The translations under genes were made by a program, and so were the position numbers. This document shows positions 1 to 5,492 of a DNA stretch of 10,000 nucleotides, piece by piece; within the stretch, counting starts at the first letter, position 1, and the number at the start of each line of letters is the position of its first letter. The DNA is from Candidatus Hydrogenedens sp. (GTDB lineage Bacteria; Hydrogenedentota; Hydrogenedentia; Hydrogenedentales; Hydrogenedentaceae): the NCBI GenBank assembly GCA_020216745.1, contig JAIWNQ010000147.1:1-10000 (forward strand), read 5' to 3'. The notes beneath the pieces were generated by a model, which worked only from the letters and a program-made list of their open reading frames with translations, was not told the DNA's origin and did no database searches.

Positions 1-100
1 ACGACCGCAGTGCTTTTTCTGTTTGTGCACCTTTCTCACTTAAAAACTGGTCTACTTGGCTCGGATTAAAATGCTTTATCAATGGAAAATCAGAATTCAT
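1..100 (-). CDS. Partial N-terminus, probable polyprenyl (geranyl/farnesyl) diphosphate synthase
   Basis: An open frame on the minus strand begins with ATG at 100-98 and stays open to the window edge (33 codons): [20 protein letters not shown], then SEKGAQTEKALRS. Its start shares one base with the xseB stop (TGATG), so it looks translationally coupled and is the third gene of the xseA-xseB operon. In many bacteria, including E. coli, ispA follows xseB, and short-chain isoprenyl synthases often begin with an amphipathic helix of this kind (hydrophobics spaced through a charged segment ending near 'EKAL'). No catalytic DDxxD motif lies within the visible part, so the product is inferred from context and a weak N-terminal likeness. 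That the frame is coding is much surer than its name. Confidence 0.6.
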   Translation of the reverse strand, partial: MNSDFPLIKHFNPSQVDQFLSEKGAQTEKALRS

Positions 101-492
101 CAAAACGGTAAATCCTCATTATCTGTTAAATAGAGGTTGCCCTCATTATTCTCCAATGTTGATTTTTTCGGTTTGGTAGAAGTCTTTTTATGATGCACCT
201 TTTGAGAATCATCTGCAGTTTCTTCACGAGAAGCAGATTCCGCTTCTGATACATCAAAAGGTTGTGGTTCAATCTCACCTTCCTCATTCTGCAAAAGTAT
301 TTCAATCCGTCGTTCTGCTTCTGTTAGGGCTTTCTCACATCGTCGTGCTAAATGTATCCCTTCTTCAAAACGTTTTAACGATTCTTCTAAAGAAAGTTCT
401 CCTTTCTCAAGGTCTTGAACAATTTGTTCTAATTTTTGCAAGTCCTTCTCAAAATTTCCAGGACGTTCCTTCTCTGGATTTTTTTCCTTCAT
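100..492 (-). CDS. xseB: Exodeoxyribonuclease VII small subunit with SSB-like C-terminal tip
   Basis: This is the small subunit of exonuclease VII, which with XseA degrades single-stranded DNA to short oligonucleotides. Residues about 14-68 are the complete XseB helical hairpin, with the typical core [18 protein letters not shown] followed by a second helix rich in Arg/Glu. The chosen start is the ATG at 492, which forms an ATGA overlap with the xseA stop and has AAGGA 9 nt upstream. An ATG three codons earlier (501) abuts that same AAGGA and is less likely. The protein is 130 aa, against about 80 for E. coli XseB. The extra part (69-130) is charged, probably disordered, and ends in TDNEDLPF. 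That end closely resembles the acidic tip of SSB (DDDIPF or DDDLPF), which recruits repair proteins. Family assignment is firm; the role of the tip is inferred. Confidence 0.93.
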
Positions 493-1868
493 TGTTTCCA
501 TTCCTTATCTTCCTCAATATTTTTTACAGTTGCATGGACATTTCCTTTTGAAAATTGAATTTTAACACAATCTCCAGGTTTTAGTTGAACAGATGAACGA
601 ACCAGGTCATGTTGAGGCTCAAGCCAGGTCAGTGAATAACCACGATTTAACACATTTAACGGACTTAACATTTCAAGCTTCGCAATACACGGCAAAAATA
701 ACGACCTTTTATTCTGCACAATATTTGACATTACTTGTTCTAACTGACTTGCAAGAAATATAAGTCTCTCTGTCTGCGTTTTAATACGCATTTGAGGTGA
801 CATAATTTGTAAAGCATATTTTACCTTCTGAAGCCTCTGGCTTAGTAAGGTTCGTTTCCAATTCCACCAATCTTCAAGTTGTTTACGATAGTCCGCCACC
901 TGGAGTCTATATTCACGAAACATCGCTTCAACACTTTGAAATCCACGATGCCGAAGAGCCAATTGAAGACGATGCCGAAATACCTGTATCTTTTGGGATA
1001 AGAGATGTAGCACCTTCTGCTTTTTGGTCTGAATCATATCCCACAGTACTGTTTGGTCCTGAATAACCATCTCTGCCGCTGCTGATGGTGTAGGAGCACG
1101 CACATCTGCTACAAAATCTGCCAGAGTAAAATCAATCTCATGACCTACCGCAGAGATAATCGGTGTTTGGGCTTCATATATAGCACGCACTACCCTCTCC
1201 TCATTAAATGGCCAGAGGTCCTCTAATGAACCTCCGCCTCTACCAACAATAATAACATCCACACCATATCTATCCAGGAACCGAATCCCCTCTACAATTT
1301 CACTACTCGCTTCTTCTCCCTGTACTCGTGCAGGATATAAAATTACATGAATATTAGCAAACCGACGAGTTAAAACTTTCAAAATATCACGGATTGCCGC
1401 ACCTGTTGGAGACGTAACTATACCAATTTTACGCGGGAGCATAGGCAATTTTTTCTTATGTGCTGGGTCAAACAATCCTTCCAACTCTAATTTCTTTTTC
1501 AACTGTTCAAAAGCAAGCTGTAACGCACCCAGTCCCTTGGGCTCCATTTGTCGAACTACAATCTGATGCGTCCCGCGACGTTCATAAACTGTAACCTGCC
1601 CTGATACAATAACCTCAATACCATTCTCTGGGGTAAATTTTAACAACTGCAAGTCACCCCCAAACATCACAGCACTAATCTCGCTTTCTGAATCCTTTAA
1701 TGTGAAATATGCATGCTTTGATGAGGCAACCCTCCAATTAGAAATTTCACCTGTAAGCCAGATGTAACCGATCTCTTCCTCCAATAAAAAACGGATTTTA
1801 CGATTCAGTTCGGACACAGTCCATATATGTTGTTCCGTTATCTCAGAAATCTGTTCAGACACAATCAT
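489..1868 (-). CDS. xseA: Exodeoxyribonuclease VII large subunit
   Basis: Catalytic subunit of exonuclease VII, 459 aa from the ATG at 1868, close to the 456 aa of E. coli XseA. Order: N-terminal OB-fold DNA-binding domain (about 16-110, starting [16 protein letters not shown]), the catalytic domain (about 135-270) with [30 protein letters not shown] and [20 protein letters not shown], then a long coiled helical region (270-400) where XseB binds, and a small C-terminal β part. Residues matching E. coli D155, R205, H238 and D241 are present as D161, R210, H243 and D246, so it should be active. A TTG start at 1889 is possible, but it has no Shine-Dalgarno sequence, whereas AAAGG lies 4-5 nt before the ATG at 1868. 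It is the first gene of the xseA-xseB-isoprenyl synthase-like operon and is divergent from the lipoprotein gene. Confidence 0.96.
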
Positions 1869-1910
1869 AATACCTTTGTCATTAACCAACGTTTTATTTT
1901 GAGAAAGTTA

Positions 1911-2698: not shown

Positions 2699-4381
2699 TT
2701 ATTTTTTCAAAGGGAGAATACACCGAAAACCAACCGTATTTGTTCTTGTTTCGGGGAATAACCCCTTTCGTGCTGTACAGGTAATTTCATTACTACTGGA
2801 ACTCCAGCAACCACCTCGAACCACCCGCAGTGGAGGATTCGGTATTTTATCAGGCTGTGAACGGGCAACCGAATACGGCAAGTAATAATCCCGAGTCCAT
2901 TCCATTACATTACCAGCCAAATCACAGATTCCATCTGGCGTTCGCCCCTCTTCATGCATTGTAACAATAGAAGGTATGCCTAAATAATTATTATAATTGC
3001 AATGAATCGTGTCTGGAGGTGTGTTTCCCCACGGATACTTACGATTTTCCTTTCCACGTGCAGCAAACTCCCATTCTTTTTCAGAAGGAAGCATTTTTCC
3101 TGCCCATTGAGCATATTCATTTGCCTCAAACCACGAAATACCAACAATAGGTTGGTCTGGCCCGTTTAAAACAGGGTCATGCCAATAACGAGGTAATGGT
3201 GCCCCTGTTGCCTCTATATATTTCTGATACTCCGCAACAGTCACAGGATAAATATCCATCCAGAATGGCTCAACAAAAACTTCCTCCTCTGGGGACTCCT
3301 CCACTACCTCATCATTACCCATTAAAAAATAACCCCCTTCTAAAAATACCATTTTCTCCGTTGATACATTTTTTTCCTTCTGTATCTTTGTAATAACATG
3401 GATTTTCTTTTCCGTATACGATTTCTCAAAACTTTCCTGTAATGCCTCACGGAATTCCAATGCGGTTTGCCAGCGGTCTTCACGTTCTTCTTTAAGTGCA
3501 CGTTGTAATACATCGTTTATAGAAGGTGATACATCACTACGTAATTGTAATAAAGGAACATATTCATCAATAGGCGACCGTAGAGTTAACAGTTCATATA
3601 AAATTAACCCGACAGAATACAAATCTGCCCGCGTATCAATAGCCCACCTTTTCTTCTGCTCGGGAGATGCATAGGCATATGTACCAACAATACTTTTTTG
3701 TAATTTCGTTTCGCTACTCGCCGACTGTGATATAGACTCTTCTACCGCTAAAGCCAATCCAAAATCCAAAACTTTGATCTTCTCGCCTGGTAAAACCATA
3801 ACATTCTCAGGTTTTAAGTCCCGATGTGTAACCCAACGATGTGCATACTCCAACGCCTGTAATATCTGCAAAGTAAATTGAATCCCTATACGGACAGGGA
3901 TATATTTTTTCTCAATTCGATATTTTCGTAAAAGACTCCTCAATGATTGACCTTCTAAGTACTCCATACTTAAAAATAAAAAGCCTTCATTAGTCCAATC
4001 TACATCATGAACAGCAATGATATTCTCATGCCGTAACCGACGTGCCAACTGAGCCTCTTTAATAAATAACTGTGCCGCTTTCGGTGCTTTGAGTAAACTT
4101 GGATGCAAAAATTTAAGTGCAACTGCCTCATCCAACAATTCATCCTTCGCCCGATAAACATATCCCATCCCACCTTTACCTATTAACCCCTCTATAATAT
4201 ATCGGTCATCAATTCTATCCCCCTGTTTAAACTCAATATGGAACGAAGTATCTCCTGTCAGATTTGGAACGACTATTGGTTGATGGCAATTAAAACAATA
4301 ACTCTTTCTACCCTGTACCACTGCAGGAACCCATATCTTCAAACCACAATTTTTGCATATCACTGAAACTATAGGTTGCAT
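2699..4381 (-). CDS. Ser/Thr protein kinase with N-terminal zinc ribbon and C-terminal FGE/sulfatase-modifying-factor fold
   Basis: A 560-aa three-part protein. Residues 9-32 form a zinc ribbon (C9xxC12, C29xxC32, of the MJ0042-like type). Residues about 61-315 are a Hanks-type kinase with all key residues: glycine loop GKGGMGYVY (68-76), K90, E109, HRDLKPEN with D188, K190 and N193, D206 of DFG, and ASPE at 238-241. A Ser/Thr-rich activation segment (216-234) offers autophosphorylation sites. After a short charged linker, 343-557 is an FGE-sulfatase (SUMF1) domain, from MVFLEGGYFLMGN to VGFRCILP, with the typical PVTVAEY, LPSEKEWEFAARG, YPWGN and DLAGNVMEWTRDYY blocks. No membrane segment is visible, so it is probably cytoplasmic. 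The FGE copper/catalytic Cys pair is not at its usual place (GGCWSSSS here), so that domain is probably non-catalytic. Chlamydial Pkn1 has a comparable kinase-FGE layout. An AAGGAG lies 12 nt before the start and a second GGGAAGGA abuts it. Confidence 0.93.
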   Translation of the reverse strand: MQPIVSVICKNCGLKIWVPAVVQGRKSYCFNCHQPIVVPNLTGDTSFHIEFKQGDRIDDRYIIEGLIGKGGMGYVYRAKDELLDEAVALKFLHPSLLKAPKAAQLFIKEAQLARRLRHENIIAVHDVDWTNEGFLFLSMEYLEGQSLRSLLRKYRIEKKYIPVRIGIQFTLQILQALEYAHRWVTHRDLKPENVMVLPGEKIKVLDFGLALAVEESISQSASSETKLQKSIVGTYAYASPEQKKRWAIDTRADLYSVGLILYELLTLRSPIDEYVPLLQLRSDVSPSINDVLQRALKEEREDRWQTALEFREALQESFEKSYTEKKIHVITKIQKEKNVSTEKMVFLEGGYFLMGNDEVVEESPEEEVFVEPFWMDIYPVTVAEYQKYIEATGAPLPRYWHDPVLNGPDQPIVGISWFEANEYAQWAGKMLPSEKEWEFAARGKENRKYPWGNTPPDTIHCNYNNYLGIPSIVTMHEEGRTPDGICDLAGNVMEWTRDYYLPYSVARSQPDKIPNPPLRVVRGGCWSSSSNEITCTARKGLFPETRTNTVGFRCILPLKK

Positions 4382-4446: not shown

Positions 4447-4496
4447 TAATCTAACCTTATTATCCTATAAATAAACGACGTTTGTCTAATAACAAA

Positions 4497-5492
4497 ATGA
4501 TTATTATGAATGAAAGAAAAAAATATAAATATATAACCATATTCAAAATAGTTACTTTTTTATTATTGGTAGGATTTAATTCCTTCTCGGCTACTATTAA
4601 AATTCCAGGTGTATATGCAAACCTTAATGACTGCATATCAATAGATGTTGAGATAATAACATCTGATGAAGAAATCACAACCGCAGTCATTGCTTTTACA
4701 TTTGATCCTCAAAAAATTCAAATTGGATGTAATACCGAGAATATCGTTACTTCTTTAAGCGAACCCATTATCTATGATTATTCAAATATATCGCCTAATG
4801 AAACTAAAAATACTGAGCCTCCTATAAACATAACAGATGAACTTAAAAACAATAATATTAAATATCGCATCGCTATATACCCCGAAGGCTTATTTGTTAT
4901 TGCTCTTTGGGGAAGTACACAAAAAATTCCGTCAGGAACCATTTTTTCCGTTCCATGCAAAATACTAAGCCCCGCCAAACCAGGTGAGACATTGCTTCTC
5001 ATACTACCTACACAACAAACACCCATTACATTAGAACGTGTATTTCCCGACAATCATGTAGAACAACAACTTTTTTACTGCTCACTCTCAAATATAGAAG
5101 CCTTGCCTATAGAGGTAACAACTATCCCAGGTGCAATTTGTGTAGTACCCTTAAATGAAGGAACCCTAAAAATAGAGGGTGAAAATATTCAGGAAGGGGC
5201 AAACCAGGAAGGAACACATGAATGCACTCCAGAAGGGCAATATCCAGAAGGAAACACCAACGATGGAGCAATAGAAGGAGATGGAGAAGGAACAAATACT
5301 GAAGGGAGTATCATTGAGGGACGTAAGGAAGAAGGCTCGAAAGAAGGTGATAACTCCCATACCGTCAAAGTGCTTTGTGGTTGTCAAAAAAGTGAAACCA
5401 ACAAAAACATAAAAACCAAACTGTCTCTATACCCATTAAACATAAATTTTGGTATAATGCTCACACTTCTTGTTTTACTAAGAAAAATATAA
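4497..5492 (+). CDS. Secreted cohesin-like protein with Glu-Gly repeats and putative Cys-type C-terminal sorting signal
   Basis: 331 aa from the ATG at 4497. The in-frame ATG at 4506 (MNERKKYKY) is equally plausible and a TTG lies at 4482; none has a clear Shine-Dalgarno sequence. Residues 1-32 are a signal peptide: a Lys/Arg-rich n-region, the core ITIFKIVTFLLLVGF, and probable cleavage after NSFSA. Residues about 33-215 look like a cohesin-type β-sandwich ('VYANLNDCISIDVEI' then 'AVIAFTFDPQKIQIG'), a resemblance by pattern only. Residues 221-284 are a low-complexity tract of Glu-Gly pairs. The C-terminus has Cys294-Gly-Cys296, an 18-20 residue polar spacer, a short hydrophobic segment (about 317-328) and a terminal RKI. 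This Cys / helix / basic-end order resembles MYXO-CTERM-like sorting signals handled by intramembrane proteases. The Lgt-family gene begins 30 nt downstream, suggesting co-transcription. Surface anchoring is inferred; the precise function is unknown. Confidence 0.85.
   Translation: MIIMNERKKYKYITIFKIVTFLLLVGFNSFSATIKIPGVYANLNDCISIDVEIITSDEEITTAVIAFTFDPQKIQIGCNTENIVTSLSEPIIYDYSNISPNETKNTEPPINITDELKNNNIKYRIAIYPEGLFVIALWGSTQKIPSGTIFSVPCKILSPAKPGETLLLILPTQQTPITLERVFPDNHVEQQLFYCSLSNIEALPIEVTTIPGAICVVPLNEGTLKIEGENIQEGANQEGTHECTPEGQYPEGNTNDGAIEGDGEGTNTEGSIIEGRKEEGSKEGDNSHTVKVLCGCQKSETNKNIKTKLSLYPLNINFGIMLTLLVLLRKI
5157..5348 (+). repeat. Degenerate Glu-Gly coding repeat
   Basis: This stretch of the cohesin-like gene contains about 13 Glu-Gly pairs (GAA/GAG followed by GGA/GGT/GGG/GGC) spaced by two to six variable residues such as NTND, TNT and SII. 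Gaps and synonymous codons vary, so it is an old, diverged array rather than a recent slippage tract. It forms an extended acidic, probably flexible stalk between the folded domain and the C-terminal Cys-Gly-Cys signal. EG-rich stalks of this sort are, from memory, frequent in exported proteins of Lentisphaerota and Hydrogenedentota. Confidence 0.8.
5453..5458 (+). promoter_or_regulatory. Putative extended -10 element for the lgt-family gene
   Basis: TGGTATAAT (5450-5458) fits an extended -10 (TGN plus TATAAT) and lies inside the 3' end of the cohesin-like gene, 64 nt before the lgt-family start. It could give that gene an internal promoter in addition to read-through. No -35 of note was seen. 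The hexamer also encodes part of the C-terminal helix, so chance occurrence is possible. Confidence 0.25.

Follow-up and report, generated by a model that had tools for sequence, protein, structure and literature searches.

The C-terminal tip of SSB, the protein that binds single-stranded DNA (ssDNA), is reported to read DDDIPF in E. coli and DDDLPF in SsbA of S. aureus (PMC5531588). The pockets that receive this tip (SSB-Ct) are described as burying the C-terminal Phe, with a basic lip that holds its carboxylate and a basic ridge that meets the acidic residues. For RecG, binding is reported to weaken when either of the last two residues is lost or altered: the KD for the SSB tip is 3.1 µM, against more than 30 µM without the Phe and 23 µM when the Pro before the Phe is changed to Ser (both PMC10164576).

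For exonuclease VII (ExoVII) the described counterpart is that of E. coli. Its small subunit XseB (PDB 8txr; also 1vp7) belongs to the same family as the protein studied here, and the genes are alike in their position beside xseA or in the order xseB-ispA. However, XseB of strain K-12 measures 80 amino acids and ends in LTPFTPDNE, with neither a linker nor a tip, as the sequence-only reading had claimed. Deinococcus DdrB offers another comparison, but this is an ssDNA-annealing protein whereas XseB is a nuclease subunit; the DdrB motif is reported to be unnecessary for radioresistance.

The XseB analysed here is encoded in a window of 10,000 nucleotides, by which we mean the whole stretch of DNA under study. 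Its build is that of SSB: a folded domain, a long and variable linker that is predicted to be disordered, an acidic stretch and a C-terminal Phe. The likeness is one of sequence and has its limits, since the tip sits on a nuclease subunit, and across the order (Hydrogenedentales) the residue at -2 is mostly L instead of P and that at -3 L instead of I or V. Among the open-licence PMC papers listed (titles and the beginnings of abstracts, preprints and subscription papers excluded) we found no description of an SSB-like tip on XseB.

The xseB gene and its product

The features of the locus are listed in Table 1. The gene xseA lies directly upstream of xseB on the same strand, and its stop codon overlaps the ATG at 492, which is the likely start of xseB. 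From this codon the protein comprises 130 amino acids; the first ATG of the frame (100-501) is found at 501 and would yield 133. On the other side the next frame overlaps xseB by one base, as ispA does in E. coli, although this likeness is one of position. For XseA the sole PDB relative found was 8txr_A.

Table 1. Features of the xseB locus in window coordinates
Feature	Position	Strand	Basis
xseB, exonuclease VII small subunit	100..492	minus	Pfam Exonuc_VII_S 69.7 bits, NCBIfam NF002140 86.1 bits
Folded XseB core, helical hairpin	298..453	minus	Pfam stretch; predicted helices 12-30 and 35-62
XseB charged linker, mostly disordered (predicted)	127..255	minus	pLDDT; position identity about 0.1 among relatives
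XseB C-terminal tip TDNEDLPF	103..126	minus	Conservation across the order
xseA, exonuclease VII large subunit	489..1889	minus	Pfam Exonuc_VII_L 335.7 bits, TIGR00237 475.3 bits
Start of next frame, ispA-like position	2..100	minus	ATG and xseB stop have one base in common

The claim that this is an XseB with an SSB-like acidic tip is borne out. The protein is a genuine XseB by profile, its score lying well above the curated cut-off of 24 for Exonuc_VII_S (PF02609), and it ends in the acidic tip given in Table 1. In an AlphaFold2 model computed from 38 aligned sequences, pLDDT is high for the greater part of both helices and below 50 at residues 88-101, 103-105 and 113-121. The tail is thus predicted to be a disordered tether.

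Two other frames of the window may be mentioned. The one at 2699-4381 (minus strand) encodes a protein kinase domain fused to a sulfatase-modifying-factor (FGE-sulfatase) domain, and the one at 4482-5492 (plus strand) an EGE-rich repeat protein that has no Pfam match at an E-value of 0.001.

Conservation of the tip in the order and comparison with SSB

We searched 60 genomes of the order, including that of the window, and found XseB in 54 of them (a second, weak match in G036 was excluded). All 54 proteins could be read to the stop codon. They end in F in 53 cases and in Y in the remaining one (L276). At -2 there are 45 L and nine P, at -3 L occurs 40 times, and at -4 74% have D or E. Pairwise agreement between the proteins is 0.96, 0.72 and 0.55 at positions -1, -2 and -3 but only about 0.1 from -16 on, and the linker is unalignable. 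The tip takes mostly an acidic-L-L-F form, with EDLPF, GELPF, GELLF, EDLLF, GNMLF and MDALF among the variants. The sequence-only reading had expected homologues to keep the terminal motif while the linker varies. This is correct across the order as far as the linker and the Phe end are concerned, but the form is mostly LLF, with LPF less common; LPF as such was rejected as the conserved motif because PF ends only the nine proteins with P at -2.

To be counted as acidic, a tail had to end in F with at least three acids among the preceding eight residues. Under this rule 47 of the 54 XseBs pass, and six others end in F with fewer acids. The background consisted of 300 stop-to-stop frames of at least 150 codons, chosen from 101 fetched xseB loci (L004-L033, L069-L139) by a greedy procedure that favoured length and allowed little overlap; these are frames and not vetted genes. 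Eleven of them end in F and none satisfies the acid rule. Judged by these counts the XseB tip of the order is not an accident. A frameshift or assembly artefact was likewise rejected as its source: among 30 loci that were read, 29 genes of relatives share the tip type with the window's own.

In a separate set of Hydrogenedentota-like relatives (P0001-P0078, from which P0014, labelled partial, was dropped before counting) 77 of 77 end in F, but this count is biased because the split from P0079-P0120 was made after lengths and tails were known. The count over 54 genomes is the trustworthy one.

The SSB of the same organism ends in HFPEDDVPF, the gene being split over two adjoining 10-kb pieces of the assembly. 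The sequence-only reading had called for a comparison with this end, and it is supported in that the SSB tip reads EDDVPF. Three other genomes of the genus have SSBs ending in EDDVPF, EDDVPF and EDDIPF. An SSB match was found in 58 of the 60 genomes of the order; 30 of these SSBs were fetched, one of which runs off its contig, and all 29 with a stop codon end in [IV]PF. As SSB keeps [IV]PF whereas XseB in the same cell carries mostly L-[LP]-F, the two ends are alike without being identical. Going by their final letters, the XseB tips of the order differ from the SSB tips systematically.

Recurrence outside the order

A scan of named genomes yielded 71 XseB loci, several of these genomes overlapping with the order and class sets. 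Nine of the 71 proteins end in F, all nine with at least three acids before it, and 62 have no Phe end; the latter include the XseBs of Syntrophaceae, Rokubacteria, Nitrospira, Chlamydiae, Lentisphaerae and Bacillota. Judging by their tails, three of the F-ending proteins (L077, L090 and L117) belong to the window's order or genus. The other tips are DEDDIPF in Pyrinomonas methylaliphatogenes (L074), DESVF in a Pyrinomonadaceae MAG, DEDAPF in a Vicinamibacteria MAG, DDDVPF in an Acidobacteria MAG, DDDTPF in a Vicinamibacterales MAG and PSSLF in a Pirellulaceae MAG. In five of these six genomes outside the order the SSB ends in [DE][DE]D[IV]PF (DEDIPF in P. methylaliphatogenes, L142); in the sixth no SSB was found.

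Of 78 genomes searched in the Pyrinomonas class 75 contain XseB and 70 proteins were extracted, Pyrinomonas itself being counted under the named scan. Twenty of the 70 end in F, 15 of them as PF, with tips such as DDSIPF (L216, L221, L222, L223), DDVPF (L176, L180), DIIPF and AVPF; L218 even ends in DDDIPF, the exact letters of an SSB-Ct. P stands at -2 in these 15 of the 20 F-ending proteins against one of the 50 others. Acid alone is not special, however, because 40 of these 50 also carry at least three acids. The planctomycete class of the Pirellulaceae MAG (59 genomes searched, 54 with XseB, 46 extracted) gave 24 F-ending proteins, 18 as LF (DRTLF, DRKLF, GPRLF and others) and six as PF, and nine of the 24 have fewer than three acids before the F. 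Two more planctomycete XseBs have a similar motif that stops short of the C-terminus, L237 (...GLFE) and L251 (...GLPFGEEDS). In the class of the Vicinamibacterales MAG (the class of L105; 60 genomes searched, 55 with XseB, 50 extracted) four of the 50 XseBs end in F, all as PF.

Among relatives of acidobacterial type (P0121-P0235, an acidobacterial source name being given only for P0131, P0151 and P0169) all 115 end in F, 111 of them in PF and mostly as DESPF. This set is uninformative on frequency, because seven of the ten sequences in the query alignment end in F and the rows come from the best 120 of 7984 matches.

The tails collected here place a Phe-ended XseB tip in three phyla. A tree of the XseB core (255 rows, of which 75 have F) requires at least 24 changes of the F state, compared to 59-70 in 30 shuffles of the labels. 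The count is rough and does not distinguish gain from loss; the tree was built on about 66 residues and includes every third of the order's 54 members as well as some duplicate genomes. An earlier tree that did not include the class of L105 (205 rows) also gave 24 changes. The trait therefore follows clades, yet it has been gained or lost many times.

A candidate role for the tip and its alternatives

What the analysis shows is the motif with its conservation and predicted disorder, the end of SSB in the same genome and the recurrence in other phyla; a pocket, a partner and an effect are inferred. Our preferred, though tentative, reading is that the XseB end is a selected linear motif of the SSB-Ct type, through which ExoVII engages SSB-Ct-type pockets in trans. 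The motif would consist of a disordered tether, acidic residues, one or two hydrophobic residues and the C-terminal Phe. As the E. coli enzyme in 8txr comprises 4 XseA and 16 XseB chains, an ExoVII particle with its many XseB copies would likely display many tips. The pocket of the partner would read the Phe side chain together with the alpha-carboxylate, as in SSB-Ct pockets; the Phe is indeed terminal in all 53 F-ending XseBs of the order, which is expected if the carboxylate is read. Repair proteins with such pockets would be engaged in trans, RecO being a candidate, and the outcome would be either a nuclease coupled to the processing of SSB-coated DNA or competition with SSB.

By their letters, the XseB tips fit the rules of SSB-Ct pockets in that the Phe stands at the very end and acids mostly precede it. 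The Leu before the Phe in most XseBs of the order (44 of the 53 F-ending ones) appears to misfit the Pro rule and counts against binding of SSB-Ct pockets in trans, although the substitution measured was to Ser and not to Leu. The same goes for the non-terminal planctomycete motifs of L237 and L251, the systematic difference from the SSB tips, the F-ending tips with fewer than three acids (six of 53 in the order, nine of 24 in the planctomycete class), the 62 of 71 named-scan XseBs that lack a Phe end, and the findings on RecG, PriA and RecQ given below. The SSB mimicry proposed from the sequence alone is partly supported: it is plausible overall, with the strongest case in the acidobacterial forms and a weaker one in the LLF forms of the order.

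The tip might also act in cis, a possibility that goes beyond the sequence-only reading, as XseA of B. subtilis is itself a partner of the SSB tail. There, XseA is listed in the interactome of the SSB C-terminus: GFP-XseA no longer forms foci when SSB lacks its tail, and XseA is recovered together with tagged SSB, but the table of the same paper marks in vitro binding of XseA to SSB as ND (PMC3000357). An SSB-Ct-like tip could then sit in a pocket for SSB, on XseA or in another part of ExoVII; this would keep the enzyme inactive until the tip is displaced by SSB on ssDNA, or fix the XseB shell to XseA. The many XseBs per particle would provide a high local concentration at such a pocket. Nonetheless, the Phe tip is missing from the large majority of the named-scan XseBs and from that of E. 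coli, so ExoVII assembly in general needs no such tip, and we think an action in cis unlikely. The prevalence of different forms could also mean that the C-terminal Phe motif is read by a lineage-specific partner unrelated to SSB, with LLF or xxLF (Hydrogenedentota and Planctomycetes) as one motif and the acidobacterial PF as another. Most F-ending XseBs of the order and of the planctomycete class carry LF, whereas most of those in the Pyrinomonas class carry PF; unlike SSB, 14 of the 18 planctomycete LF ends show R or K among their five final residues (as in DRTLF, DRKLF and GPRLF). But a single order holds both LPF and LLF, which replace one another there, and a single planctomycete class both LF and PF; a pocket tolerant of either would explain this more easily. 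Most tips moreover match SSB-Ct in their terminal position and acidic surroundings. A separate partner for each lineage is in our view improbable.

Known clamp-binding motifs end in LF, Gln heads the QLxLF motif, and clamp motifs need not be terminal. The LF at or near the C-terminus of XseB resembles the end of such motifs and might bring ExoVII to the replication clamp. This explanation is very improbable, and a canonical clamp motif was rejected, since the head Gln is nearly always missing: among F-ending XseBs, Q stands at -5 in one of 53 in the order, none of 20 in the Pyrinomonas class and one of 24 in the planctomycete class, and the EDLPF of the window has E there. The Pro at -2 of the LPF and IPF forms misfits a clamp motif, too, and the Phe is last in 53 of the 54 XseBs of the order, though the two planctomycete motifs noted above are non-terminal. 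Chance or drift, by which acidic low-complexity tails merely happen to end in Phe, could draw on the many acidic tails that lack Phe in the Pyrinomonas class. Such an origin of the order's tip is, however, largely refuted and hardly credible given the terminal F in all but one of the 54 genomes despite unalignable linkers, the lack of F together with acids in all 300 background frames, and an F state that changes far less often on the tree than after shuffling.

To engage SSB-Ct-type pockets in trans, as we prefer, ExoVII needs partners in the same cell. Of the known SSB partners, the genes of RecO, PriA and RecG were found in the organism's genome, but the pocket residues of E. coli type are not conserved in RecG and PriA. 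In RecG (L354) the E. coli pocket residues R467/R474/R614 align with K/F/C; without the three SSB-binding arginines it may not be an SSB client of the E. coli type. For PriA the pocket residues R697 and Q701 are described from Klebsiella (PMC5531588). As we read the alignment (E. coli numbering shifted by one), which does not include the N-terminal pocket residues, R697 is replaced by T, followed by two lysines, and Q701 by N. RecO is too diverged for pocket mapping, its PDB matches having E-values of 0.32-0.98 only, and the RQC domain of RecQ was not found in the assembly, which is given as 86% complete. Still, the organism's SSB keeps a canonical tip, so some pockets presumably exist.

SSB-Ct is regarded as the address label that belongs to SSB. 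A look-alike of it, conserved and recurrent, on a multi-copy nuclease subunit would imply that the code is open to other proteins. ExoVII would thereby gain access to SSB-centred repair, and the look-alike would bear on the presence of XseA in the B. subtilis interactome. A wider proposal, which we hold to be possible but rather doubtful, is that ExoVII has repeatedly become a second SSB-type hub in at least three phyla. The shell of XseB tips would then capture either the partners of SSB or the SSB site on the XseA of the same enzyme; the choice of repair enzymes that meet a DNA end would fall to a nuclease and not to the ssDNA-binding protein.

Unusual XseB frames among the relatives

Some frames met during the searches deviate from the usual build. 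The planctomycete XseB L248 has an internal SSLF and a new end, QEVPF; it looks as though a PF end had taken the place of an LF end after an extension. Two Exonuc_VII_S domains stand in tandem within one frame in L332:303-2393 (plus strand), L350:102-1799 (plus strand) and L351, and in nine of the 60 genomes of the class of L105 two Exonuc_VII_S matches lie about 200 bases apart. Long frames of this class (551-697 codons) that finish as XseB resembled XseA-XseB fusions, but Pfam detected no XseA domain in the five that were scanned, and their upstream parts may be chance open frames. Finally, a contig titled Methanosarcinaceae archaeon (L102) encodes an XseB-like small subunit, which points either to an archaeal ExoVII or to a binning error.
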